Source: an uncultured Clostridia bacterium (GTDB taxonomy: Bacteria > Bacillota > Clostridia > Oscillospirales > Oscillospiraceae). From it: a DNA stretch of 64,000 nt. Location: assembly GCA_946061515.1 (NCBI GenBank), contig CAMGRL010000003.1, positions 1 to 64,000 of the forward strand. Reading direction: 5' to 3'. The notes under the pieces were generated by a model that was given only the letters and a program-made list of their open reading frames with translations, did no database searches and was not told the origin of the DNA. Numbering within the stretch: position 1 is the first letter of the stretch; the number at the start of each line of letters is the position of its first letter. Made by a program: the position numbers and the translations under genes. Below are positions 38,943-52,050 of the stretch, in pieces.

Positions 38943-39233
38943 TTATTCCGGCACCTGCTCACGCACTGTCCAGCCAAACATCGCTTTAAAATCTTCATAG
39001 CACGCCGGACAGATCCAGAAAGCGCTGCGGTTGTTTTGGGGGCTTGTACAATAGCCTTCCTGCAAGCACCCATCCAGACGGGCAAATTTTTCCCAACAGA
39101 ATACGCAGTGCTCATGATCCCACTGTTCGGAAAGCGGCCGGAAAGGGATGTGATACAGCAGGATGTTTTTTAATTTTTCTTCATTGCCCTGCACAGGCCC
39201 GGCAACCAAACGCCAATCGTCCTTTTCGATCAT
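38943..39233 (-). CDS. Small Cys-rich protein, probable zinc-binding, immunity-array type
   Basis: ATG 39233 follows AGAAAGGCGG. The 96-residue protein has DWRLVAGPV at the start, LSEQWDHEHCVFCWEKF in the middle and ICPACYEDFKAMFGW near the end; CVFC and CPAC could bind one zinc. I recall this DWRL...WDHEHCxFC...YCT...WICxxCYxDFK pattern as a widespread hypothetical family in Firmicutes arrays with DUF4304 and similar immunity proteins. Its promoter carries the same sequence (CTCTGGCATTTTTCTGTG...TATGGTATATT) as the promoter after spoIVB fragment 2, tying it to the cassette array. Confidence 0.65.
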   Translation of the reverse strand: MIEKDDWRLVAGPVQGNEEKLKNILLYHIPFRPLSEQWDHEHCVFCWEKFARLDGCLQEGYCTSPQNNRSAFWICPACYEDFKAMFGWTVREQVPE

Positions 39234-40839: not shown

Positions 40840-41016
40840 GTTATATGATTATAATGAGCATCAGAATAAAGCATTCGAGGTTTGTCCAGACAATATCAAT
40901 ATAGAAATGCTAAAAGGCAGCAAATAAGCTGCCTTTTAGCATACTTTTCAGTTATTTTTCCGCATTGTCTCGTCGGATTATTCATCAAAACATGGGGCAG
41001 TAGATGATGCCCACAA

Positions 41017-41700
41017 TTATGGGATTTCAATTCCGAGTTCCGCAGCAAGACCATCCAAGTACCTCAAGTGGTTCTGGATGGCTTGCGGATCTTTTTGCGC
41101 CAATTTTCCGCTTCCGAAAAGGTGATAGTACATCTGAAAGGCTTTAACCGCTTTTTCTGTCTCGCCGCGCCGCCCATAAATCATGGTTTCTTCCAGAAGG
41201 ATCAAATGATTGTTTAATATGTCAAACTGCGGATATGCCCTGCGCAGGGCAAGGATGGCATCTCGGCTGTTGAGAGCCTCAAACGCCGGAATGACAAGTC
41301 CCTGGATCTGGCGCAGAATATCTGCAAGAATACAGTCTGGGGATCGGCGCAGATCGTAGCAAGCTTCCGCTTTCCCCTCAATCCTGCCCAGCCGGGACCG
41401 AATATTACATTCATACTCGTGATAGTATTTTTTCTTTACTTCCTCAGGATGAAAACTGCGGAGCATACATTCTGGAACACGGATGCCAATGTCGACGAAC
41501 AGCAGGTGTGTTTCTCCTCGGTAGGCCTGTCCGAGTTGAAAATGGATGACCTGGGATATATCTTCGGAAACAAATCTGTGCAGAGTGCGGCCATACTTTC
41601 TGAATCCGTATGGTTTGACGGCGGTATGTACAGCCTTTTCAATGGCGTCAAGTGTTTTGCTTGTATACGGTTTGGGATCGATTTGATTGATTCCGGGCAT
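41017..41700 (-). CDS. DUF4304-like protein (immunity-type)
   Basis: ATG 41700 is eight bases after GGAGG. The 227-residue cytosolic protein has the DUF4304 pattern: LDAIEKAVHTAVKPYGFRKY, GRTLHRFVSEDISQVIHFQLG and LLFVDIGIRVPE, with the aromatic and Gly residues in the usual places, then a helical C-terminal half. DUF4304 proteins are common among immunity proteins of polymorphic toxin systems and are often found as orphan arrays. No toxin gene is visible nearby. It is driven from a promoter (TTTACA-17-TATCCT, minus strand) that directly follows spoIVB fragment 1. Confidence 0.75.
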   Translation of the reverse strand: MPGINQIDPKPYTSKTLDAIEKAVHTAVKPYGFRKYGRTLHRFVSEDISQVIHFQLGQAYRGETHLLFVDIGIRVPECMLRSFHPEEVKKKYYHEYECNIRSRLGRIEGKAEACYDLRRSPDCILADILRQIQGLVIPAFEALNSRDAILALRRAYPQFDILNNHLILLEETMIYGRRGETEKAVKAFQMYYHLFGSGKLAQKDPQAIQNHLRYLDGLAAELGIEIP

Positions 41701-41784
41701 GAACGCCACCTCCGGATTTAGGATATCAAATGAAAAATGCTATGTAAAGCGGAAAGCATGAGCAGGCAGAAACGCTTTTCCGGT

Positions 41785-41907
41785 TTATTCCGCCGCGCCC
41801 GGCATTTTCTTTGTAAATACCCCGTACTCCCGCGAAGAGCTGTTGACGAGAACATGCGTCACCGCGCCGACCAGTTTCCCGTTCCGGATGATCGGGCTGC
41901 CGATCAC
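41785..41907 (-). pseudogene. spoIVB 3'-end fragment 1 (most diverged)
   Basis: The minus strand encodes [20 protein letters not shown], then [20 protein letters not shown] and stop: 40 codons aligning without gaps to the C-terminus of SpoIV B peptidase (Bacillus SpoIVB ends its protease domain with [20 protein letters not shown]). The catalytic-Ser context MSGSP has become VIGSP. Its 5' junction, GTTGTCC-ATAATGCCAATCAC (41930-41908), is shared with fragments 2 and 3. Confidence 0.85.
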
Positions 41908-41945
41908 GGGTGATTGGCATTATGGACAACATTTTTTGGTACAAA

Positions 41946-42656
41946 TTATTCCGCAATTTGCGGAAAAGAAAACATATCAAAATTTCTGTCCCTCAGTGTC
42001 AATATTTCGTCATTCGTGAGGCCGGCATAGTGCAAACCGGACCATTTCATTGATTTTTCGGTAAAGCCCGATGATTGAAGCGATTTGTAGCTACGCAAAA
42101 AATCGTATGCCTTTGCGCTGAGCGGCTGCTTATGTATAATTTGATTTTCTTTGAACTCGCCGACATAACCCTGGTTGTAAACGCCATGAGTATCCCGCAC
42201 GAAAAACAAAACCGTATATTGATTTTCAAGTGCGTTGTACTCAATGTTGCTCAAGACCAGCGACCTGTCATCCTCAAACAAACGCTTTACAAGCGAAAAG
42301 GATCGCGTTTCGTATATGGATAAGCGAGTACGGACACTGGAGCCTGTTCTTTCAATATTCAAAAAATATTTTCCGTCTGCAGAGAAGCAAAAACCATCAT
42401 CCTGCGAGCCGTCAACATCGGAAAATCTGAATTTGTGCAGCAGTTTTCTTTCCTCACAATCATAAACGGCAAGTCGGCCTTCCGTTGACCGCAGGACAAA
42501 AATATTGGAGTGCGGTTTGAAAGCTCCCCGGTAAGCATAAGGGATGTCCTTGAATTTTGCCAACTCATGATCGTCTGCATCGTACAAATACATTGTTGCG
42601 CCGTTACACCCAACTTTGTATTTACCATTATCATAAAAACCCCAGAAGCTTCTCAT
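41946..42656 (-). CDS. Propeller-like protein, unknown function
   Basis: ATG 42656 follows GGGGAGAAG. The 236-residue protein is cytosolic (no signal) and built of short repeats, each with a Y-D or F-S turn: CNGATMYLYDADDHELAKF, TEGRLAVYDCEERKLLHKF, CFSADGKYFLNIERTGSSV and RTRLSIYETRSFSLVKRLF, spaced about 40 residues. This is a WD40-like beta-propeller with four or five blades. It directly precedes spoIVB fragment 1 in the array. Such small orphan propellers occur among immunity-type genes; no clear partner is visible. Confidence 0.65.
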   Translation of the reverse strand: MRSFWGFYDNGKYKVGCNGATMYLYDADDHELAKFKDIPYAYRGAFKPHSNIFVLRSTEGRLAVYDCEERKLLHKFRFSDVDGSQDDGFCFSADGKYFLNIERTGSSVRTRLSIYETRSFSLVKRLFEDDRSLVLSNIEYNALENQYTVLFFVRDTHGVYNQGYVGEFKENQIIHKQPLSAKAYDFLRSYKSLQSSGFTEKSMKWSGLHYAGLTNDEILTLRDRNFDMFSFPQIAE

Positions 42657-42744
42657 TTTCTTCTCCCCTAACCATACATAAATTATATCAGAGATAAATT
42701 TCCTTTCAAAGGGGGATCAAAGCAAAAACAGTTGTCCCTGTTTG

Positions 42745-43572
42745 CTAATTCTTTTCTTCCGAAAAGGCTTTGCGAAACACATCAAAATTTGTGCTCCGTT
42801 TTTCATTCTTTTTTATCGCAAAGGTAACACTCTTGAATAAAGCTGCGTATCCGTCATCAATCAGCAATTTTCTGAACATATTCGCCACCAGCTTAGGCGG
42901 ATTATTGAATGCTCCACAGCCAAATGCGCCTAAAACCAGATGATCTGCGGCATTGGCAGCAGCGACCTCCAGAATATTACGGATCCTGTCAAGAAAAACC
43001 TGCTCCAATTTTTCCATACTGACCGGCTCCTTTTTCTGCTTGTCATAATAGGGAGCTGCACAGCTGATAACATCCACATCATACCATTGCTCCGGAGCAA
43101 GATTCACCGGATAAAGGTCATCGGATTTGAATACCGTTACCTTTGGTGAATAGATAATTCGGTCTGAACCCATATCTCCGGTATTCTTCTGATTCCATTG
43201 GTAATAGTGACGGGCAATATAGGGCAGAGTCAGACTTTCATAGAGGTTACTGCTGCGGCAAAGGCATTCCTCCTGCGCCATGGCCCCATCCTTCACCCCG
43301 CCTCCGGGCTTATATGCGTTGGCAAAGTTTAAAACCGCTGTTTTTTCTCCGGCTCTTGCCAATTTGGCAGCACAGGAAAAGGTCGTATCTTCTACAACAG
43401 ATACCTCCGGCGTCTCTCTTTTTCGTTCACCGGTCATGGAAACAAAATGATCTAAATAAAGCTGCGTTCCCGCCTGCATCCTTCGGGTTTTCTCTCTCAG
43501 CGTCTGGTCAGATTTTACTTGAATTTGTGTATCCATAAAACACGCGCACAGTCCAATGGAGCTCATCATCAT
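42745..43572 (-). CDS. TIGR02452/PARG-like ADP-ribose glycohydrolase
   Basis: ATG 43572 follows AGAAAGGG. The 275-residue macrodomain-type protein has NFANAYKPGGG (about 82-92) and QEECLCRSSNLYESL (100-114); the GGG and adjacent Glu pair (QEE) are the catalytic signature of bacterial poly(ADP-ribose) glycohydrolases. Further on VLGAFGCGAFNNPPK matches the macrodomain phosphate loop. It should release ADP-ribose from ADP-ribosylated protein or polymer. The neighbouring upstream gene is an ADP-ribosylglycohydrolase, so both probably reverse or process one ADP-ribosyl modification, perhaps from a toxin. Confidence 0.85.
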   Translation of the reverse strand: MMMSSIGLCACFMDTQIQVKSDQTLREKTRRMQAGTQLYLDHFVSMTGERKRETPEVSVVEDTTFSCAAKLARAGEKTAVLNFANAYKPGGGVKDGAMAQEECLCRSSNLYESLTLPYIARHYYQWNQKNTGDMGSDRIIYSPKVTVFKSDDLYPVNLAPEQWYDVDVISCAAPYYDKQKKEPVSMEKLEQVFLDRIRNILEVAAANAADHLVLGAFGCGAFNNPPKLVANMFRKLLIDDGYAALFKSVTFAIKKNEKRSTNFDVFRKAFSEEKN

Positions 43573-43685
43573 TTTCCCTTTCTATTTACATAATTGCCTG
43601 GTAAAGCAAAGCCATTACTATTGAATAAACAGATATCCATTTGCAGCACACGATAAATCACACCATGGGAAACCGAACTGTTCTT

Positions 43686-44672
43686 TTAGTATAGTACCCG
43701 CTCAAATGCCTCGACTCTCTCTTCCAGCCACTCATATCTGGACAGCTGTCTGAGCCACGCTTCCGGGATTCCGGTGCTGCCGCCTCGTCCATATACATAT
43801 CCTGCAAGACTTCCTGCAACAGCTGCAACAGTGTCGGTATCCCCGCCGAGATTAACGGCTTTCAAAACACATTCCTTAAAGGACTTGGTTGTAAGAAGAC
43901 ACCAGAGTGCGGCTTCCAGTGTTTTTACAACGTATCCTGTACTCTGTATCTCGTCTTCTTCCAGTTTTTCAAAATCCTCCAGTTTTTCCAAACGCCGGTA
44001 CGGCCATAAGGCTGCTGCCTGGTATTTATCTGATCCATTCTCATAATGGAAAAATCCACGATCAATTCCGCGCTGTAAAACTGTACGAACGTCTTCACCG
44101 GCATCTGCCTTCAAAAGTTCATCTACGAGAAATGCGTAGAGTCCGCATCCTGTAAGGCTGATCGGATGAGAATGGGTCAGGCGGGAAACATTGTGAATCA
44201 CTTCCACTTTTTCCTCATCCAAGGTCTGTTCGTCCTTCAGGACATATAAAACTGCCGGCAGGATTCTCATCAATGAACCATTTCCGTTGGAGCGTTCACC
44301 ATCTTCGCCGCATTTCAGTACCTCGAAACCATGGGTATAGTTCATGATTGCACGCCGGCATACCATTCCAACGTCAAATACCTTTCCATGGGGAGTGTAT
44401 GTTTTATTGTAAAGAAGCCATTCTTTAAACCGCTTCATCATATTTTCGTAATCAATTCCATGTTTCAGACTGTCCATCGTGGCCAGTGTCATACTGGTAT
44501 CATCGGACCATGTACCGGCCTCCTGATAATGGGTTCCGAAACCGGTCATGTCTGTCACTGGGTTCTCTCTCAATTTATTGCGGGATTTAAACTCAGCCGG
44601 TACGCCGAGAGCGTCACCAACCATCAATCCCCAGAGACCGTCCATTCTGTTTCTGTTCTTTGTCATCATCAT
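43686..44672 (-). CDS. ADP-ribosylglycohydrolase family protein (DraG-like)
   Basis: A 328-residue, all-helical ARH/DraG-family enzyme; GAAGGTGG precedes the start at 44672. The dinuclear-metal ligands are present: WSDDTS at 55-60 and GGDTDT at 276-281, with an SNGNGSLMR block around 129-137. These enzymes remove ADP-ribose from Arg, Ser or nucleic-acid targets. The next gene (113 bases downstream) is a PARG-type glycohydrolase. A leader segment, GTGCTGCAAATGGATATC (about 43637-43654, minus strand), between the two genes resembles one behind spoIVB fragment 2, so the pair may consist of two former cassettes. Confidence 0.88.
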   Translation of the reverse strand: MMMTKNRNRMDGLWGLMVGDALGVPAEFKSRNKLRENPVTDMTGFGTHYQEAGTWSDDTSMTLATMDSLKHGIDYENMMKRFKEWLLYNKTYTPHGKVFDVGMVCRRAIMNYTHGFEVLKCGEDGERSNGNGSLMRILPAVLYVLKDEQTLDEEKVEVIHNVSRLTHSHPISLTGCGLYAFLVDELLKADAGEDVRTVLQRGIDRGFFHYENGSDKYQAAALWPYRRLEKLEDFEKLEEDEIQSTGYVVKTLEAALWCLLTTKSFKECVLKAVNLGGDTDTVAAVAGSLAGYVYGRGGSTGIPEAWLRQLSRYEWLEERVEAFERVLY

Positions 44673-44980
44673 ATCTCACACCACCTTCTCACACTTCCTG
44701 CATTTTGCAGTCCCTATTTCTTCCGGAATCTTGATTTGCTGCGTTTTTTGATCTCCCTCAATTCACTCCTCTCATCTCTTAACCCTTGCAGTTCTCCTTA
44801 ACGGTGATTCAAGTATACAAAAGGGAAAAGGAAGTATGGTCGCCTGCGAAGCGACATTTTCACAATCTGGCTGCAATTGCCCGTCAAAGTGAATACGGAT
44901 ATCCATTTGCTGCACATTTTTATTCAGTATATCATAACCACAGAAAAAAGCCAGAAGCTTTCCCGCCTCCGGCATCCATA
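44673..44980. other. Long leader between spoIVB fragment 2 and the DraG-like gene
   Basis: On the minus strand this 308-base region holds a terminator (GCCGGAGG...GCTTCTGGC, then TTTTTT; 44942-44975), an extended -10 promoter (TTATGA-TATACT, about 44925-44937) and a 230-base untranslated stretch with no gene. A short frame at 44772-44975 starts inside the terminator and is not credible. Confidence 0.55.
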
Positions 44981-45103
44981 TTATCCCGCCGCATCCGGCA
45001 TATTCTCAATCAATATCACATACCCTTTCGTCGGATCATTCACAAGAACGTGCGTCACCGCGTCCACCAGCTTTCTGTTCTGCAAAATCGGACTGCCGCT
45101 CAC
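44981..45103 (-). pseudogene. spoIVB 3'-end fragment 2
   Basis: Minus strand encodes [20 protein letters not shown] and [20 protein letters not shown], then TAA: 40 codons of the SpoIVB C-terminus, with several substitutions (ILQNR, VDA, VIL, P for L). The 5' junction GTTGTCCCTAATGACAATCAC (45125-45105) precedes it; an in-frame TGA lies four codons upstream, so it cannot be part of a functional protease. Confidence 0.88.
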
Positions 45104-45140
45104 GCGTGATTGTCATTAGGGACAACATTTTTTTAGGCGC

Positions 45141-45171
45141 AAAACAGCCATGCACCAGGAATGCATGGCTG
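45141..45171 (-). terminator. Terminator of array gene 45182-45841
   Basis: AGCCATGCA (45146-45154)/TGCATGGCT (45162-45170) perfect stem, followed on the minus strand by GTTTT. Confidence 0.75.
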
Positions 45172-45181
45172 CCACATATCA

Positions 45182-45841
45182 TCAAAAGACGGAAATCATA
45201 TTGTGTTGCTCACACAAAAGACGGTCATAAAACTCAATCAAATCCCACAATTCCTCGCTGCCGTTTTCTTTACTAAGCTTCTTTTCGTTTTTCGTCAGTT
45301 TCCTCCTGATTGCATCAAGAAGCTTTGGACAATCCATTGCAAATGTTGCAGCTCCTCTTTTCTCATATGCAAGTTGTGTCACAATAAATATGAGAGCATG
45401 AAGCAAAACGTAGGCATCATTGCCATTGTCTTCCACAATTTGAAGAACAGCGTTTTGCACATCAGTGTCAAAATGAGCATCTTTATTTTCTGCATGGTAA
45501 TCATACAAAACCTCTGCATTAGGGCCCAATAACGGCATGGGAATTTCACCGTCGTCCGACCTATGTTCCGCATAAGGCGGTAATCCTATCACAAAGTCCG
45601 CCAGCTTATTTTTATTTATTGCGAGCTCAAACCATTTTTCAGCATAGATTCGGGCTTGTAGCGTACTCATATCCGTCACTTCCCCTTGAGTAAACGCTGA
45701 ATAAATCGCCTGCGGCGTCTCGCGGAAAATTTGCGCCCTGATTTCGTCACTTTTTCTTGCAATACACAAAGTATTCCTGCAAAAAAGTGCCATCATCAGA
45801 ACGCAAATTTTCTCGCGATCCGCTCTTGCCGATTTAATCAT
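45182..45841 (-). CDS. Array protein of unknown function, 219 residues
   Basis: ATG 45841 lies downstream of a good extended -10 (TGC-TATAAT, about 45872-45864 region) behind spoIVB fragment 3; the ribosome site (AAGTAAACG) is weak. The 219-residue protein is cytosolic and mostly helical: an N-part with SARADREKICVLMMALF, a middle with FVIGLPPYAEHRSDDGEIPM and a helical C-part (WDLIEFYDRLLCEQHNM). No family recognised. Size, single-gene unit and surroundings fit an immunity-type gene. Codon use is more AT-rich than in the housekeeping genes of the window, consistent with transfer. Confidence 0.55.
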   Translation of the reverse strand: MIKSARADREKICVLMMALFCRNTLCIARKSDEIRAQIFRETPQAIYSAFTQGEVTDMSTLQARIYAEKWFELAINKNKLADFVIGLPPYAEHRSDDGEIPMPLLGPNAEVLYDYHAENKDAHFDTDVQNAVLQIVEDNGNDAYVLLHALIFIVTQLAYEKRGAATFAMDCPKLLDAIRRKLTKNEKKLSKENGSEELWDLIEFYDRLLCEQHNMISVF

Positions 45842-45884
45842 CGTTTACTTGAGTTTGATGCATTTATTATAGCATACAATTGCG

Positions 45885-45920
45885 AAAAAAGACAGGGGCA
45901 AAATCTGCCCCTGTCAAAAA
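45885..45920 (-). terminator. Terminator after spoIVB fragment 3
   Basis: Minus strand: GACAGGGGCA/TGCCCCTGTC perfect 10-bp stem, then TTTTTT. Followed by the promoter of the next array gene. Confidence 0.85.
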
Positions 45921-45921
45921 T

Positions 45922-46044
45922 TCACCCCGCCGCATCCAGCATATTTTCAATGAAAATCCCATACCCTCGCGTCGGATCATTCACAAGAACATGGGTCACA
46001 GCCCCCACCAGCTTTCCATCCTGGATGATCGGACTGCCCGACAC
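45922..46044 (-). pseudogene. spoIVB 3'-end fragment 3 (best preserved short copy)
   Basis: Minus strand encodes [20 protein letters not shown] and [20 protein letters not shown], then TGA, identical to fragment 4 except for V instead of M at the first and A instead of T at the second-last position. The 5' junction GTTGCCCCTAATGACAATCAC (46066-46046) is shared with fragments 1 and 2. Too short for a protease; it is a relic or a recombination site. Confidence 0.9.
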
Positions 46045-46092
46045 GAGTGATTGTCATTAGGGGCAACATAATCGAGGAATGTATTACATCTG

Positions 46093-46446
46093 TTATTTTA
46101 GCTTATTTCCATCCGAGTCCAGTCCATAGGCTGCATACGCCTGTTCCCAATCGAGACCACCACGCTGGAACATTTGCTGTGCCTGATAGCGAGCGTCATT
46201 CAGATTTTCCGAGGTTGTCCGCTTGTATTTGAAAGCGCGTTCGTCCTCGGATTTATCAGCCAATTTTTGCACTTGTTCGAAGGAAATCGGTTCTCCTGCC
46301 TTAGATAAATAGTATCCTTTGTCTCCACCAATCACACAGGCTTTGAAAAGCGCATCGTAAAATCGATGTGTCTTTAAGTCAATAATAACAGCAGCATAAT
46401 GTTGGCTGTCCAAAAATGACGAAATAAACAATTCCTTGTAGTTCAT
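46093..46446 (-). CDS. Array protein of unknown function, 117 residues
   Basis: ATG 46446 is seven bases after GGAGG (GTG 46452 and ATG 46449 are alternatives). The 117-residue cytosolic protein begins NYKELFISSFLDSQHYAAVI, with a strand-turn-strand, and has a C-terminal helical part with two W/Y-rich helices (GLDWEQAYAAYGLDSDG). Not recognised as a known family. It forms a single-gene unit with an extended -10 promoter (TGC-TATCAT) and the terminator of spoIVB fragment 4 upstream, and ends 27 bases before the shared junction of fragment 3. Confidence 0.55.
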   Translation of the reverse strand: MNYKELFISSFLDSQHYAAVIIDLKTHRFYDALFKACVIGGDKGYYLSKAGEPISFEQVQKLADKSEDERAFKYKRTTSENLNDARYQAQQMFQRGGLDWEQAYAAYGLDSDGNKLK

Positions 46447-46501
46447 CATCACACCTCCTCAATGCAAATTCTTGTTGAATTCATGATAGCATACAGCAAA
46501 T

Positions 46502-46532
46502 AAAAATGCCAGAGGCAAAATACCTCCGGCAC
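46502..46532 (-). terminator. Terminator after spoIVB fragment 4
   Basis: Minus strand TGCCGGAGG/CCTCTGGCA stem (one mismatch) then TTTTT. Almost the same hairpin follows fragment 2. Confidence 0.7.
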
Positions 46533-46536
46533 TGTT

Positions 46537-46674
46537 TTATCCCGTCGCATCCAGCATATTTTCAATAAATATCCCATACCCTCTCGTCGGGTCATTCACC
46601 AGCACATGTGTCACAGCCCCCACCAGCTTTCCATCCTGGATGATCGGGCTGCCGCTCATTCCCCGCACGATTCC
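46537..46674 (-). pseudogene. spoIVB 3'-end fragment 4 (longest)
   Basis: Minus strand encodes [20 protein letters not shown], then [20 protein letters not shown] and LDATG, then stop. It keeps the GMSGSP block around the catalytic Ser of SpoIV B peptidase and extends about five residues further upstream than fragments 1-3. An ORF is open to 46749 but residues before GIVRG are unrelated. The other fragments' junction sequence is absent here, so this copy marks the original end of the array. Confidence 0.85.
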
Positions 46675-46751
46675 GCGCAGCCAGATCAGAGAGGGGGTAG
46701 AGAGAACAGACAGGAGCTGATGAGCCGGGAGGAAAACCAATCCGCGCATGT

Positions 46752-47573
46752 TCAGCCCCGGCCCAAATTCAGGATGCCGATGTTGAAATCGGGGTCGTAT
46801 TCATACAGCTCATCCGTCACGTCAATTTCCAGTTCTTTTGCGATGTGCTCCAGCGTTTCAAAACCGGCTGTGCCGCTGACGGTCAGCAGATAGCCGTATT
46901 CTTCGCTGAACAGAAGTACATAGTTCACTTTGGCAAGGGCTCCGGCTGTGCCGGAGGGGTCCCAGGCCGCAGTCAGCTCCCTGACCGAAAGGCCGTCCCA
47001 TTGTTCCTCCTTTACCACTTCCACCTGGCCGTTGACAACCAGCTGATAGCCGGGGGCGGCATAGCCGATGCTGATGTCATACAGAATATCCTCATCGTCC
47101 CAATGGCCGCATTTCTGATACCAGCCCTCCTCATCTACGATGTCCGGGTCCAAAACCATGAGCTCTGCAGGCACCCAATGGGGCTTGAAGCGGATCTTGC
47201 GCGGGGCGGATTCACAGTCAAAGCCGATCACCATTCCTGCGTCCGGATAGTACATCCCCACGTCAAATTTCTCCCCGGCCGCGTTTTGCTCTGCCCATGT
47301 GCCTTTCACAGTTTCCGACGCTTCGGGCCTTCGCCATGTGAAGCCAAAGAGGCCCAGCGCGTAAGCGCTGAGGGTAAAAAGGGACAGCAGCACGGCGGCG
47401 ATCAAAACGATACGCACCGTTCTGCCCAGAACATAGCGGCGGTGCCTTGACCCGGATGTGATCTGCGCCATGACCCGCGCTTCGATCCGCTTGGCCGTTT
47501 CCCCGTCAAAGCCCGCAAAATCCACATCCTCCGGGAAACACTCAGCGGCCATATCCGCAACCGCAATCTTCAC
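46752..47573 (-). CDS. DUF4367-like membrane protein, probable anti-sigma factor
   Basis: Start GTG 47573 is seven bases after AGGGGG and overlaps the sigma gene by 32 bases; ATG 47552 is an alternative. The 273-residue protein has a cytosolic N-part, one helix at about 51-75 ([20 protein letters not shown]), and an outside domain whose end ([20 protein letters not shown]) matches DUF4367, a domain typical of Firmicutes anti-sigma/sensor proteins. The helix-end motif S-A-Y-A-x-G-x-F-G is shared with 28271-29461. It likely holds the neighbouring sigma factor inactive until an outside signal arrives. Confidence 0.7.
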
Positions 47574-48111
47574 AGCTGATCCCCCTCTCTTCCAGATAGC
47601 TTTTCAGCTTCTCCCTTCCCCGGGATAATCGCTGCCGCACCGCGGCGGGACTGAGCTCCAGCGCGGCAGCGATCTCCTCGGTTTTCTGATACAGAAAATA
47701 GTAGCGCCGGAAGATGGAACGGTCCGGCTCCGGCAATTCATCCGCCGCCTGGCGCGTCAGGCGGCAAACATCTTTTTTCAACATTTCCTCCTCCAGGTCA
47801 GGGGAGGAGAGAATCATATAATCTTCCTCCAGCGGAACGGACAGGTGCAGATTCCGCAGCTTGTTTTTGGCCAGATTACGGGTGACTGCGGCCAGGTAGG
47901 CTTTCAGCTTTCCCTCCTCCACCTGGCCGGCGTGGTTCCAAAGGGCGAGAAAGGCGTCGGCGGCGATCTCTTCCACGTCCTCCGGCTGAAGCGGGGGAAT
48001 GGTAATATTCGCCGCGATGGTGCAGATATAGGCGCTGTATGTTTTTATGATTTCGGACAAAGCGCGGCTGTCTCCGGCCGCGAGGCGCGCTGAAAGGCGT
48101 TTTTCGTTCAA
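47542..48111 (-). CDS. ECF-type RNA polymerase sigma factor
   Basis: Start chosen at TTG 48111, 11 bases after AAAGGAG; ATG 48144 lacks a ribosome site. The 189-residue protein has sigma region 2 at about 10-80 (YSAYICTIAANITI; PEDVEEIAADAFLALWNHAG) and region 4 at about 125-180 (EIAAALELSPAAVRQRLSRG and REKLKSYL). Its gene overlaps the DUF4367-type gene and is divergent from a third propeller/solute-binding lipoprotein, the same arrangement as at 28.3-32.2 kb. A TGTGACAG dyad in the shared spacer may hold its own -35 elements. Confidence 0.85.
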   Translation of the reverse strand: MNEKRLSARLAAGDSRALSEIIKTYSAYICTIAANITIPPLQPEDVEEIAADAFLALWNHAGQVEEGKLKAYLAAVTRNLAKNKLRNLHLSVPLEEDYMILSSPDLEEEMLKKDVCRLTRQAADELPEPDRSIFRRYYFLYQKTEEIAAALELSPAAVRQRLSRGREKLKSYLEERGISCEDCGCGYGR

Positions 48112-48164
48112 AACGGCACCCGCTCCTTTCTTCTCGTTTATCATAACACGGCTGGACAGCATTT

Positions 48165-48200
48165 TGTGACAGGATTTCCAAAAATATTTTTTCTGTCACA
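48165..48200. promoter_or_regulatory. Divergent TGTGACAG dyad in sigma/lipoprotein spacer
   Basis: TGTGACAG (48165-48172) and CTGTCACA (48193-48200) form a perfect 8-bp inverted repeat with an A/T-rich 20-base centre. Each half could be the -35 of a sigma-dependent promoter, one for each direction: start points would fall near 48201 (plus) and 48164 (minus), both just upstream of their genes. Confidence 0.5.
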
Positions 48201-48255
48201 ATTTTCTGTCTTCCGGTTTTCTGAGTAACAGAGAACGGAAGGAGGAAAACAGCCG

Positions 48256-50394
48256 ATGAAGAGAATATCAGCGCTTATTCTGCTGCTGGCCCTGGTTTTC
48301 CCGCTTTGCGCCTGCGGCGCTGGAAAAACGGAAGAGCACAATGAACAGCAGCCTTATGCGGCGGAAGAAACCCATATGGGCTATCTGCCCCAAAAGCTCC
48401 CTGCCCCGGAGGGATGGGAGAACATACGGGACATCACGCTGGACGGCAACAGGATCTATACCGCCGGGACGATGGGAACCGGAAAGGATGGGCAGAGCGG
48501 GGCCCCGGCGGCAATTACGCCCTGGCTGGGCGTGTTTCAGATCGAAGAGGAGAGCTGGCGGCAGATCAGTCTCCCTGAAACGGCGGCGGGGGAGTTTCGC
48601 AGCATCTCTGCAAAGGAGGGCCTGCTGTGGGCTTTGCTGGTCGACTATGGCGGCGAGGATTATTCTTTTTCCCTGCTGCAATACAGCATGGACACAGACC
48701 AGGTCACGATCCGGCCCATCGGCTTTGCTCCCGCTGAGGGGCCCATCGGATACGGCTTCGGCGGCATTGCCGCGATAGGCAACGGCCTTGCGCTCCTCTT
48801 TGACGAAAAGAACAATTATGTTATCGACACAGAGGGGAATATCCTGAAAGCCCTGCCCCTTACAGAGGGCGATCCGCGCTGCCGCATGGAGCGGGGCGGA
48901 CAGCTTTTTGCCCGCTGCACAAAGGACGGACAGGACGGTTTTGCCTGTTTTAATCCGGAAACCTTAACTTTCACGTCCTTCACCCCCTTCAACGCCCAAT
49001 CCACGGAGCCTGGGCAGTTCAGCAGCTATGGCGAAGCGACAAGCTCCCGCTGTGAGAGCGAAGGGGACAGTCTGCTGCTCTGCGGAAACGACGGGTTGTA
49101 CCGCTATGACCCCAGCGGCGGCAGTACAGAGCGCCTTTCTCCGTGGACAGATCTTGCAACAGAGGCAAGAGACCTGAATATGCCGGCAGAAGTGATTCTG
49201 GAGGCGGAAAACGGCGACTTGTTCTTCTGCTCCAACGGCCCATATCTGATCAGACTACAGCTGACGGAGCAGAGAAACAAAATTCTTCTTCGCTTTGCCT
49301 GCTGCGGAAACGGCCAGCGATATCAGGACGCCATCCTGCGCTTTAACAACACAAACCCGGACTATAAAATCGAAATGGTCAGCATTGAGCCCTCTGACCC
49401 CGACCGGCGGGAACGATTTCAAAGGGAATTTGCCGCCGGGTATGCTTATGATATCATCGACACGGCACTGCTTCCAGGGGACGGCGCGGACGCCTCTGTT
49501 CTTGCCGATCTGCTGCCGCTGATCGACAGCGACGGGGAGTACAGCCGCGAAGACTTCATTCAGCCAATCTTGACGGGCATGATGAAGGACGGCGGGCTGT
49601 ATGAGCTGATCCCCAGCGTGGCGATTATGAGTCTGGCCACAAGCCCCGACGATACTCCCGGCGCGGACGGCTGGACGATGGAAAATTTAGCGGACGGAAA
49701 GCCCCTGTTCTCCGCCCGCTGGGACCGGGAGAAGCTGCTGGACTGGCTTTGCCTTGCCGCGTCGGCGGAGTTTGTGGACTGGCAGAGCGGGACGTGCAGC
49801 TTCGACAGCCTGCTTTTTTCGTCCTGGCTGACGCTCATCAAAGAGGGGAGCATCGCCGACGACCTGGATCAGGCCGTACTGCTCTCCCCGCAATATAATG
49901 CGGCGGCGGGGCCCTGGCCCTATTTGGACGTGCTGGAGGGCAGCTACATCTTTTCGGGCCTGCCCGGGGCCTCCTCTCCCGGTTATTTCCTGCGGCTGAA
50001 TGATCTGCCGGGGGACCAGGCAGATGAGATCCGGCTGGGCATTGCGGCAAACAGCCCCCACCGGGAGGCTGCGTGGGCGTTTCTGCGGCTCTTCCTCCGG
50101 CCGGAGTATGCCGATGAGATCCCCGTTCTCCGTTCAAGCTTTGAAGCGCGCCTTACTGAGAGAATGGAAAACGAAAATACTTTGTCCGATCTGCCGCCCT
50201 TCACCGCAGAGGACGGGGAAAAGCTGCGGGCGCTGGTTGAGGCGAGCACGAAAATGATCCGGGACGACCCTGCGCTCCGGCAGATCATTCACGACGAAGC
50301 CGCAGCCTTTCTGGCAGGCCAGCGGGAAGCGGACGAAGCCGCGAAGCTGATTCAGAGCCGGGCGGCCATCTATGTGGCAGAGCATTGCGGATAA
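48256..50394 (+). CDS. Lipoprotein: propeller-like N-half and solute-binding C-half (copy B)
   Basis: A 712-residue lipoprotein (PLCAC, Cys20; GGAGG upstream), third member of the group at 30081 and 32240 but more distant. N-half: repeated strands with DGNRIYTAGTMG and NNYVIDTEGNILKALPL. C-half from about 340: CCGNGQRYQDAILRFNNTNP, DYKIEMVSIEPSDPDRRE, then DLLPLIDSDGEYSREDFIQP and AWAFLRLFLRPEY, following the same order as in the other two (AIxxWNxxNP, LYPYIDNDPELSR, FLRQFLTKEY). The C-terminus also ends in QSRAAIYVAEH. No permease nearby. Its position opposite a sigma/anti-sigma pair suggests it is the regulated output or a partner of the sensor. Confidence 0.75.
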   Translation: MKRISALILLLALVFPLCACGAGKTEEHNEQQPYAAEETHMGYLPQKLPAPEGWENIRDITLDGNRIYTAGTMGTGKDGQSGAPAAITPWLGVFQIEEESWRQISLPETAAGEFRSISAKEGLLWALLVDYGGEDYSFSLLQYSMDTDQVTIRPIGFAPAEGPIGYGFGGIAAIGNGLALLFDEKNNYVIDTEGNILKALPLTEGDPRCRMERGGQLFARCTKDGQDGFACFNPETLTFTSFTPFNAQSTEPGQFSSYGEATSSRCESEGDSLLLCGNDGLYRYDPSGGSTERLSPWTDLATEARDLNMPAEVILEAENGDLFFCSNGPYLIRLQLTEQRNKILLRFACCGNGQRYQDAILRFNNTNPDYKIEMVSIEPSDPDRRERFQREFAAGYAYDIIDTALLPGDGADASVLADLLPLIDSDGEYSREDFIQPILTGMMKDGGLYELIPSVAIMSLATSPDDTPGADGWTMENLADGKPLFSARWDREKLLDWLCLAASAEFVDWQSGTCSFDSLLFSSWLTLIKEGSIADDLDQAVLLSPQYNAAAGPWPYLDVLEGSYIFSGLPGASSPGYFLRLNDLPGDQADEIRLGIAANSPHREAAWAFLRLFLRPEYADEIPVLRSSFEARLTERMENENTLSDLPPFTAEDGEKLRALVEASTKMIRDDPALRQIIHDEAAAFLAGQREADEAAKLIQSRAAIYVAEHCG

Positions 50395-50458
50395 GGCAAA
50401 AGCCCGGAGCCGGAGAAAAGCTCCGCGCAAGGAAATTGAAGTACAGAATGACTGCCGC

Positions 50459-50491
50459 CGGACAGAGGAGCAGGAATATCTTGCCCGCTGA
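50459..50491 (+). pseudogene. Fragment of a sigK-like gene
   Basis: Encodes RTEEQEYLAR then TGA; sigK at 52141 encodes RAEEQEYLARW. By direct comparison 29 of 33 bases are identical, the last change turning TGG into TGA. No similarity was seen on either side. Either a relic of a second sigK copy or of a recombination event; too short to exclude another sporulation sigma gene as source. Confidence 0.5.
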
Positions 50492-50501
50492 TACAAATGT
50501 A

Positions 50502-50662
50502 ATACTAATTCTTGATTAAAAGATTTAATCAGCGGCGCAGGGATATTGGTGCAAGACAAGGCAGAGGAACGCCGCCATACTTTGTGTATGGCAAGTGACG
50601 ATAACGCAGTATTGCACCAATAGACCAAGCTGATATTAAAGATTTTTATCGAGAATTAGTAT
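50502..50662. mobile_element. MITE-like element, 161 bp
   Basis: Ends are ATACTAATTCT (50502-50512) and AGAATTAGTAT (50652-50662), an 11-bp perfect terminal inverted repeat that extends imperfectly to about 30 bp. Nested inside are TATTGGTGCAA/TTGCACCAATA and CGCCATAC/GTATGGC hairpins. There is no coding capacity. Such small, nested-palindrome elements are mobilised by a transposase from elsewhere. A second copy is not present in the window, and target duplications are unclear. Confidence 0.65.
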
Positions 50663-50896
50663 AAACGATGCCCGGAAAGCCTTGAAAATACAGGCTTGTC
50701 CGGGCATCGGGTATGTTTAGGGCAGCGCGCTGTTATTGTAAGCGATGCAGAAAATTAAGAGATGCGGTTATTTGTCAAGTTATTTTTCATTAAAAACGTA
50801 TTTTGTAATCCCCTCATATTTCAGAATGAACGGCGATGTACACTCAATGAAGTACGGTTTATTTAAAATATTTTTAGGAAAAAGACGATATTTGCG

Positions 50897-51880
50897 TTAG
50901 TTCAATTTATACGCCCAATGACCGCCTTCACGGCACTTTGTAAGATTTCCTTCTGCTGCTAATCCTATCAAAATCCGATTCGCCGTAGCAGCAGACACAC
51001 CACATAGCTCCCGCACATCCGCATTCATAATAAACGGATGTGTTTTCAGGAACTTCTCAATCTGCTTCCACCGCATCGTCGCCTTATCTATCGGCCCATC
51101 ACTCATTCCATCGCTCAAATTGATTGCGTCAGTGAGCGATGCTTTGATTGCCGAGAGCATAAATTCAATAAATACCGTGGGCTCCCCGGCGTCATTGGAG
51201 GCATTGATGGCCGCATAATACTCCTGCTGGTGGTCATGGATAATGGATTCCACCGGGAGCCAGGCAAAGGCCGGATTCCATTTGGAGAGCAGCAGCGTAT
51301 GCCATAGACGGCCAACGCGGCCGTTTCCATCGGCAAAGGGGTGGATCAGTTCAAACTCATAATGGAACACGCAGCTGCGGATCAACATATGCACATCGCT
51401 GTTTTTCACCCAGTCCAGCAGCTCCATGACCAGATCCGGGACATACTGCGGCAGCGTGCCGAAATGCAGGATATGTCCTTCCTGATCGACAACCCCCACA
51501 GGCCGGGTGCGGAACATTCCTGACTCCTCCACCAGTCCCCGTGTCATGATGCCGTGGGCGGTCAGCAGGTCATCCACAGAATAGGGATCCAGCTCGTCCA
51601 GCCGCTCATAGATCTCGTAGGCGTTTTTGACCTCAGCGATATCCTTGGGCGGCGCCAGGACGTGCTTCCCGTTGAGGACTGCTGTTACCTGTTCCAGACT
51701 GAGGGTATTTTGTTCAATGGCGAGGGAGCCGTGGATGGTGCGAATACGGTTGGTCCGGCGCAGAGTGGGGTTGCCGGAAAAGGGGTTCAACGCTGTGAGT
51801 CTGCCCACCAGTTCGGCAATTTCCGCAACGCGGAAAAGCATCATATTCGTTATTTCAAAAGGAGGTTTCCTGATTCTCAT
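50897..51880 (-). CDS. Fic family protein with self-inhibitory motif and C-terminal winged helix
   Basis: ATG 51880 is after GAGGTAA. The 327-residue protein has an N-terminal helix with SLAIEQ (52-57), a variant of the (S/T)xxxE(G/N) inhibitory motif whose Glu56 should occlude ATP (class II Fic), a Fic core with HPFADGNGRVGR starting at His180, and a C-terminal winged helix at about 265-327 (ADVRELCGVSAATANRILIG) that could bind DNA. This common architecture suggests an AMP-transferase that controls its own gene; a perfect 10-bp inverted repeat at the promoter supports that. Monocistronic. Confidence 0.88.
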   Translation of the reverse strand: MRIRKPPFEITNMMLFRVAEIAELVGRLTALNPFSGNPTLRRTNRIRTIHGSLAIEQNTLSLEQVTAVLNGKHVLAPPKDIAEVKNAYEIYERLDELDPYSVDDLLTAHGIMTRGLVEESGMFRTRPVGVVDQEGHILHFGTLPQYVPDLVMELLDWVKNSDVHMLIRSCVFHYEFELIHPFADGNGRVGRLWHTLLLSKWNPAFAWLPVESIIHDHQQEYYAAINASNDAGEPTVFIEFMLSAIKASLTDAINLSDGMSDGPIDKATMRWKQIEKFLKTHPFIMNADVRELCGVSAATANRILIGLAAEGNLTKCREGGHWAYKLN

Positions 51881-51914
51881 AGAGTTACCTCATGTGGAAG
51901 ATTTGTTCAACCCT

Positions 51915-51969
51915 ATTATACCACACATCCCTCATTTCATCAATCATATCTGCGCGTAGATGAGGGATG
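51915..51969 (-). promoter_or_regulatory. fic promoter with inverted-repeat operator
   Basis: Minus strand: TTGATG (51943-51938), 17 bases, TATAAT (51920-51915). CATCCCTCAT (51926-51935) and ATGAGGGATG (51960-51969) form a perfect 10-bp inverted repeat that brackets the -35 element. Confidence 0.75.
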
Positions 51970-52050
51970 GTTAAAAACAGGGATTTTTGCTGTCGAAGGG
52001 TGGGGAATGAGGAAAAGCAGGGGGCGAATAGAATGAACGGAGGTGAGATT

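Follow-up and report, generated by a model that had tools for sequence, protein, structure and literature searches.

Displaced spoIVB 3' ends as probable attR junctions of a serine-recombinase element and boundaries of gene cassettes in Clostridia

Introduction

What does it mean when a bacterial chromosome carries several copies of the 3' end of one sporulation gene, each without the rest of the gene and each separated from the next by unrelated genes? The question is raised by a window of 64,000 nucleotides (contig C3:1-64000 of a 2.22-Mb, 81% complete draft genome in 118 contigs) from an uncultured member of the Oscillospiraceae, in which the repeated sequence is the end of spoIVB, the gene for the SpoIVB peptidase. 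An initial annotation of the window proposed repeated insertion of gene cassettes at this 3' end, or recombination between the copies. The proposal came close to the evidence now assembled, but missed two components: a half-site motif in front of the fragments and a mobile element from which that motif would derive. Taken as a whole, the array is probably best explained as attR junctions and rows of cassettes left by a large serine recombinase (LSR) element that targets spoIVB. There is little doubt that the spoIVB ends are attR junctions of such an element, and it is highly probable that the units between them are site-specific mobile units; the route by which they were captured, accretion in cis, is favored only slightly.

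The spoIVB ends in the window

The SpoIVB peptidase profile PF05580, used here to find both intact genes and fragments, matches all four of the minus-strand 3' ends that had been annotated: fragment 4 at C3:46552-46677 (E 3.6e-23), fragment 3 at 45937-46044 (E 3.5e-18), fragment 2 at 44999-45103 (E 5.9e-14) and fragment 1 at 41803-41901 (E 1.9e-11). A fifth, decayed end, fragment 0, follows the DUF4304 gene (Table 1). Read along the minus strand, the order is fragment 4, a 119-aa gene, fragment 3, a 219-aa gene, fragment 2, the genes for an ADP-ribosylglycohydrolase, a poly(ADP-ribose) glycohydrolase (PARG) and a 236-aa protein, fragment 1, the DUF4304 gene and fragment 0. The right-to-left decay that had been noted was borne out as well: scored against a hand-typed spoIVB-end consensus of 34 residues, the four fragments have 34, 34, 26 and 23 identities, and at the nucleotide level fragment 3 is 92% identical to fragment 4 over 99 nt, and fragment 2 is 83% identical to fragment 3.

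Fragments 1-3 start at the identical base of spoIVB, and each is preceded by one motif of about 26 nt that is not spoIVB sequence (consensus TGTTGTCCCTAATGACAATCACNCGTG); the motif pattern has three matches in the window and none in 100 shuffles. Fragment 4 is without the motif; judged by eye, its likeness to spoIVB extends about 21 nt upstream of the shared start base. On the minus strand, fragments 2, 3 and 4 are each followed by a terminator-like hairpin, the region having 10 such sites against 5.7 expected from shuffles; for promoter predictions in the array region (11, with 10.1 expected) no excess is claimed. The single intact spoIVB that the PF05580 search found in this genome (C7:47876-48472) is an unlikely source of the fragments, because it ends ISIQDMLETAE and the ends of fragments 3 and 4 differ from it.

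The same junction in other genomes

A loose pattern for the motif and spoIVB end matched 39 of 245 genomes of the order, although its reversed control also matched in some 20; by reading, seven of the 39 have the true junction form (G000, G051, G123, G156, G177, G188 and G219). A scan of 84,980 species genomes for the motif gave 60 stretches, of which 54 run in frame into at least five spoIVB codons. The records of these 54 junctions are titled Clostridia or its taxa, except one titled only 'Bacterium 1xD42-67'; the genera named in the titles are taken here to belong to Clostridia. Five of the other stretches are chance matches (three in Streptomyces, one in a Rhodobacteraceae genome and one in Symploca), and in the last, L121 (7908-7938), the DNA that follows the motif has no more than AGCGGCAG in common with spoIVB, and is possibly a secondary integration site.

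Without the chance matches 55 loci remain (the 54 and L121). Of these, 50 come from the 49 genomes that were searched with PF05580; it was matched in 48 genomes, and 68 of the 84 partial matches start at profile position 174-176. An intact spoIVB is present in 38 genomes. In 24 of them a fragment lies downstream of the intact gene, on the same strand and within 9 kb, and in none of the 38 does a fragment lie upstream or reversed on any contig that carries the intact gene. The intact genes that were read have GGIVQGM or close variants where the motif would stand. Some displaced ends break off early into other sequence (L105 from 2052 onward, L092, L112, L124 and L134), perhaps through later insertions or deletions.

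Split spoIVB genes and a serine-recombinase element

The origin of the motif is indicated by six genomes in which spoIVB stops at profile position 175/176. In five (G283, G312, G313, G314 and G319) the gene continues into a common stretch ending TATAATAGGGACAACA, at loci L143, L144, L145, L146 and L251; in the sixth, G285, the contig ends at the core. The split point is the same base at which the displaced ends begin, at the Met-Ser of GM/SGSP, the serine of which we take to be the catalytic one, with a core dinucleotide TG that is found in attB, attL and most attR sites. In G285 the contig with spoIVB (start of L252) and the contig with the array (end of L180) both stop at the core, as could happen if the population were mixed, some cells having the element and others not.

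The motif, P, and its counterpart beside the split gene, P', are inverted half-sites: three comparisons of P with the reverse complement of P' give 16, 17 and 17 matching positions out of 25 (one comparison pairs P of G314 with P' of G313), and the binomial probability of a 16/25 inverted match, at one in four, is 4.3e-5. The element ends are those of an LSR element, inverted half-sites around a 2-nt core common with the target. In G314 (L147) three tandem LSRs, each with the PF00239, PF07508 and PF13408 domains of that class, end about 180 nt before the motif, and the motif is followed by a spoIVB end. G312 (L116) has a like arrangement, with three tandem LSRs adjoining P and the spoIVB end, and in G319 a contig (L274) ends in three recombinases, a P variant and AGCGG. 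Relatives of the third element recombinase, LSR3, at more than 50% identity occur in three of 53 genomes, G314, G312 and G319, all with a split spoIVB. The element appears to be conjugative in the one case examined: conjugation genes (TrbL_4, P-loop_TraG) follow attL in G314 (L143), one genome only. Two further half-site-like P/P' repeats at the element's right end in L147 (at 8382 and about 8480) are possibly accessory sites.

Because of the split genes, the LSRs and the inverted element ends, the motif is read as the P half of attP and the fragments as attR. An element with three tandem LSRs would thus integrate into spoIVB at GM/SGSP by an attP x attB reaction, giving attL, composed of the spoIVB 5' part and P', and attR, composed of P and the displaced 3' end (B'). 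Other origins of the motif were rejected. Of seven motif matches in IMG/VR none is followed by spoIVB codons, and the attL pattern has no match there, which speaks against a phage; no domain V was seen by eye in the motif, as would be expected of a group II intron end.

Units: size, content and sharing

In many Clostridia where the element is not seen, small units stand in a row behind an intact spoIVB, each with the form spoIVB end, terminator, gene or genes, and P. Cutting between consecutive sites gave 47 distinct units, three of them the window's own, with a median length of 1263 nt and a range of 483 to 6546 nt; since another end, decayed or truncated, lies inside the units of L150, L155 and L181, these lengths, the maximum included, are upper bounds. 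Their open reading frames (ORFs) of at least 80 aa number 95, and 73 lie on the same strand as spoIVB. Pfam families were sought in 84 of the 90 non-window ORFs, the set excluding four G291 copies of G051 operon genes, one L115 ORF and one L138 ORF. AraC-type regulators (9), glycyl-radical enzymes (4), radical-SAM proteins (3), FAD oxidoreductases (3) and chromate transporters (2) were found besides others, and there was no recombinase family among the 25 commonest of the 62 Pfam families; when a defense role was considered, the PADLOC matches in the same ORFs were mostly to candidate families.

Sharing of units between genomes locates their boundaries. The L110 unit, which encodes a 192-aa protein without a Pfam family, is 96.7% identical to that of L113 (809/809 nt), and its last 130-133 nt are 96.9-100% identical in L113, L097, L092, L148 and L091, the contig ending inside the unit in the last four. 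Past the core, pairs of the six loci fall to 50-84% in the spoIVB end and to 39-50% beyond it, so that the right boundary of the unit falls exactly between P and core in all six. G307 and G295 are 47.8% identical over the 900 nt before the core and 98.0% in nt 105-207 after it. In G051 spoIVB is followed by a 4.3-kb unit with a LysR regulator and, by reading of the translations, a threonine dehydrogenase, a glycine C-acetyltransferase and a membrane protein. This unit is found again in G291 (86.6% by BLAST), with 85-97% identity in 34 of 48 windows of the unit against 31-56% in 100-nt windows of the spoIVB 5' part. Two neighboring units of G299 lie on separate contigs in G304. The initial annotation had proposed that units of a spoIVB end and a gene be sought in related genomes and their boundaries compared with the repeats. 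Such units occur in many genomes and end on the right at the site, but on the left the boundary lies inside the repeat.

Decay along the rows and chimeric spoIVB genes

The decay seen in the window recurs elsewhere. Among rows headed by a spoIVB-type end, the window and an Anaerostipes orphan included, the score falls from the first end to the second in 21 of 31, stays equal in 3 and rises in 7 (21, 3 and 6 of 30 without the second entry of G282, which was entered twice); mean scores are 168 for first ends, 154 for second ends and 122 for third and later ends (n=16). Longer spoIVB remnants with stops are present in G299, G304, G308 and G309.

Because units would deliver a spoIVB 3' end, array-bearing genes were expected to be alike after the core. 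The array-bearing genes (n=27) are on average 75.1% identical to one another after the core and 52.2% just before it, against 68.0% and 53.6% for controls (n=38, after three array-bearing genes had been dropped from 41). The contrast of T = 0.085 is reached in none of 2000 label permutations, and is also unreached without the window's genus (29 controls, 69.2% and 54.8%). Fragments are closer to the spoIVB end of their own genome than to others (77.1% against 71.4% in permutations, 0/2000, 32 genomes), from which we infer that homologous exchange resets the ends to host type.

The orphan array beside sigK

The window array adjoins the sigK locus, not spoIVB. The junction of fragment 4 abuts the sigK upstream region in two congeners, G351 (L229) and G012 (L035), where the locus carries, respectively, genes for a Phd/YefM antitoxin and a ParE-like protein (the latter below the Pfam cut-off), and a PARG gene. 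From the different genes at this one orphan locus in G000, G351 and G012 it appears that cassettes have been exchanged here since the genus arose. In the window, fragment 4 is separated from sigK by a 5.3-kb block (46679-51988) that is absent there in G351 and G012, with an extracytoplasmic function (ECF) sigma factor, a 273-aa gene without a Pfam family, a weakly solute-binding-like protein and Fic. The likeness to spoIVB upstream of the core of fragment 4 is limited to about 21 nt, the length of an LSR half-site, which suggests that fragment 4 is a secondary attachment site; it is possibly a relic of a spoIVB that moved. When an empty site for the window array was sought in its genus, partial matches came up in 47 of 102 genomes; the locus itself was recognized only in G012 and G351, in each with genes in place, and among the sigK upstream regions of the loci read no common empty site was found by eye. 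Matches to sigK itself halt at query nt 395 in G012, G374, G354, G357, G330, G377 and G378, and in some of these genomes the remainder of sigK lies elsewhere, as in skin insertions (L035 8463-8918).

Pfam agrees with the initial annotation on three of the genes between the fragments (DUF4304, PARG_cat_microb and ADP_ribosyl_GH); for the propeller that it had named there are only sub-threshold matches. At E 0.01 Pfam assigns no family to the 119-aa gene or the 219-aa gene. In G281 the DNA beyond the last end detected in the array holds relatives of two window genes, the 119-aa gene (47% aa identity over 81 residues) and PARG (71% aa); a further PARG relative, at 48% aa, follows the end in G012.

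Table 1. Features of the spoIVB-end array and its surroundings, in window coordinates
Feature	Position	Strand	Basis or remark
Fragment 4, spoIVB 3' end, attB-like site heading the array	46537..46677	-	core TG 46657-46658; same junction beside sigK in G351, G012
Terminator-like hairpin behind fragment 4	46505..46533	-	hairpin prediction
Cassette 1, 119-aa protein, no Pfam family	46093..46452	-	relative in G281
P half-site motif and core, cassette 1/fragment 3 junction	46037..46068	-	motif pattern
Fragment 3, displaced spoIVB 3' end (B')	45922..46044	-	PF05580
Terminator-like hairpin behind fragment 3	45891..45915	-	hairpin prediction
Cassette 2, 219-aa protein, no Pfam family	45182..45841	-	Pfam search
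P half-site motif and core before fragment 2	45096..45127	-	motif pattern
Fragment 2, displaced spoIVB 3' end, partly decayed	44981..45103	-	PF05580
Terminator-like hairpin behind fragment 2	44950..44973	-	hairpin prediction
Cassette 3 gene 1, ADP-ribosylglycohydrolase (DraG type)	43686..44672	-	PF03747
Cassette 3 gene 2, microbial PARG	42745..43572	-	PF10021
Cassette 3 gene 3, 236-aa protein, possible propeller	41946..42656	-	sub-threshold matches only
P half-site motif and core before fragment 1, diverged	41900..41931	-	motif pattern
Fragment 1, displaced spoIVB 3' end, strongly decayed	41785..41907	-	PF05580
Cassette 4, DUF4304 protein	41017..41709	-	PF14137
Fragment 0, what is left of a fifth spoIVB end, without its first part and motif	40947..40994	-	sequence comparison
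96-aa gene, possible older cassette	38943..39233	-	82% aa identity to same locus of G012

Discussion

Judged by genome comparison, the array appears to be one instance of a row of interchangeable cassettes bounded by attR sites that occurs in many Clostridia. The target site, the half-sites, the split gene, the attR junctions, the arrays, their decay and the sharing of units by unrelated hosts are all apparent in the sequences compared. How the units came to stand in rows is less firmly answered. In the accretion route, new units would enter beside spoIVB and older ones be pushed outward. An element that excises by way of attL and a distal attR would carry the intervening units along; on integration in a new host, followed by excision through the proximal attR, it would leave those units behind a spoIVB made intact again. 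The route calls for no reactions beyond the canonical attP x attB and attL x attR, and each step is a standard LSR reaction, as when cis-mobilizable elements accrete. Homologous exchange through the spoIVB ends of about 117 nt would in addition reshuffle the left ends of units.

Several observations weigh against this account. Its weakest part is the mismatch at the left end: units shared between genomes are only about 77-85% identical in their left spoIVB end (nt 0-117), against mostly 88-100% in the body, and identity switches at about nt 90-150, near the stop codon and not at the core. Movement of a circle of B', body and P predicts a common left end, and therefore gene conversion or homologous exchange must be added; the mismatch also leaves room for a purely homologous route or another left boundary. 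The engine, too, is seldom in sight. Only three of the 53 genomes have a close LSR3 relative, and most arrays have no engine in view; no relative above 50% identity was found in the split genomes G283, G285 and G313, and none of the element recombinase in the window's genome, an 81%-complete draft. Some LSR at E <= 1e-40 is present in 26 of the 53, mostly distant, and attL and attR lie on separate contigs in G314, G312 and G319, so that no element is closed. A comparison of the genes behind spoIVB in G222 with six family-f16 genomes (G232, G260, G149, G270, G093 and G109) gave no clean empty site, with a single 28% match besides spoIVB and the preceding gene. Finally, the 38 genomes that have an intact spoIVB include 14 whose fragments are on other contigs. 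The gene is at a contig edge in eight of these and inside a contig in six (G286, G299, G301, G310, G315 and G322), where the 4-5 kb read downstream of it contain no motif. Because spoIVB stands mid-contig in these six without the motif behind it, their arrays are orphans or misbinned contigs. The array genomes are mostly metagenome bins; records not titled as metagenome-assembled are Faecalicatena contorta ET55, Anaerostipes sp. 992a and Bacterium 1xD42-67.

It is possible, though we hold it doubtful, that the units belong instead to an integron-like system in gut Clostridia, in which circles of spoIVB end, gene and P are inserted by an LSR acting in trans, with spoIVB in the role of attI. Such a system would permit exchange across families, each single-operon cassette bringing a replacement 3' end by which spoIVB stays intact, with a cargo of metabolic operons and regulators, ADP-ribosyl hydrolases, transporters and toxin-antitoxin pairs. 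The small size of the units (median 1263 nt among the 47), the 73 of 95 ORFs that run with spoIVB, the 50 of 53 genomes without a close relative of the element recombinase, and the separation in G304 of units that are neighbors in G299 all suit it. It requires recombination of attR-type sites with attB, however, which LSRs normally avoid; the left end of a unit does not move together with the rest; and no circle was observed, nor was a search for circles made. If RecA alone exchanged imported DNA through the spoIVB-end and terminator modules, the left boundary would be accounted for, since it falls at about nt 90-150, inside the repeated module and not at the core. Yet a crossover at the right end should leave a common stretch after the core; none is seen, and in the six loci compared the right boundary is at P and core. 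The P motif, the split spoIVB genes and the 68 of 84 starts at 174-176 also go unexplained, and a purely homologous origin is accordingly improbable.

Little better placed is the possibility of an element like skin or gin, whose excision in the mother cell would restore spoIVB, the arrays being by-products. The target is indeed a sporulation gene, and such elements are known in sigK, gerE and yabG, but many arrays stand behind an intact spoIVB; this alternative, itself unlikely, is compatible with the LSR-element explanation and does not exclude it. That the fragments are chance pseudogene debris, or a tandem duplication of spoIVB followed by decay, is held to be refuted as a general explanation. 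The window fragments are decayed and lack most of the gene, and four genomes have longer remnants with stops, but neither version accounts for an identical start and a common motif in 54 stretches, nor for units that carry different genes and are shared between hosts with unlike spoIVB.

Relation to known systems

Under the preferred explanation, cassette rows left by an LSR element, the arrays share features with several known systems. Staphylococcal cassette chromosome (SCC) elements likewise use serine recombinases, insert at one target gene end, form tandem units with copies of the target end between them and include units without a recombinase; their target is the 3' end of orfX (rlmH), whereas here it is spoIVB. 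SCC elements are large and their repeat is short. Cis-mobilizable elements (CIMEs) of the ICESt1/ICESt3 type are att-flanked, without recombination genes, and mobilized in cis by a neighboring integrative and conjugative element (ICE). The spoIVB units too are att-flanked; those of the window have neither recombination nor conjugation genes, and in the others no recombinase family is among the 25 commonest Pfam families. CIMEs are usually flanked by attL and attR, whereas here the left flank is attB or attR and the right is attR. As in integrons, small units gather at one locus, decay away from the platform gene and have varied neighbors, but integrons use a tyrosine integrase and variable attC sites, in contrast to a serine-recombinase site of one fixed sequence here. 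Terminators, seen in the window's units, also set these apart from integrons.

The closest parallel is found at the ssrA gene of Dehalococcoides, where tandem islands downstream of one essential gene are bounded by its displaced 3' end, a conserved 15-bp motif precedes each repeat, a serine recombinase is present, and islands without an integration module have been called possible cis-mobilizable elements (PMC3146451). Tandem arrangement, displaced 3' end, motif and serine recombinase are thus common to both. The ssrA islands involve a tmRNA gene and a 20-bp repeat, whereas the target here is a protein gene, spoIVB, with a repeat of about 117 nt from GMSGSP to the stop; the spoIVB arrays differ further in their three tandem LSRs, mostly single-operon units and occurrence in many Clostridia.

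Elements within the sporulation genes sigK, gerE and yabG are likewise on record (PMC5025042, PMC5595907, PMC10747680). In those accounts skin, gin and yin lie inside a sporulation gene, skin and gin with a serine recombinase; the spoIVB case differs in having tandem displaced gene ends and cargo.

A second, different LSR element splits spoIVB about 20 codons further on, after AVTHV, in the window's genus (L038 3588-12986, with its LSR at L038:11349-12890). Both spoIVB halves are present in G033, G036, G013, G023 and G034, only the left in G007 and G016, and in G026 the right half lies beside an intact spoIVB. It looks like a skin/gin-type intervening element.

The statement in the initial annotation that no cassette system based on spoIVB ends has been described stands in the literature searched: no published account of spoIVB as such a site was found in open-licence literature, as covered by titles and the starts of abstracts. 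Tandem accretion at a gene 3' end, by contrast, was already known (PMC3146451). New here are the target, the element and the mostly operon-sized units.

Significance

The findings point to a site of gene exchange that is present in a wide range of Clostridia, many of which, by record title, come from animal guts. The half-site joined to the spoIVB end is a sequence tag by which cassettes can be listed in public genomes. The cargo looks adaptive, with AraC-type regulators, glycyl-radical enzymes and radical-SAM proteins recurring. Because the element splits a sporulation gene, horizontal transfer would be tied to sporulation, and the arrays offer a simple case for asking how LSR elements become cassette arrays.

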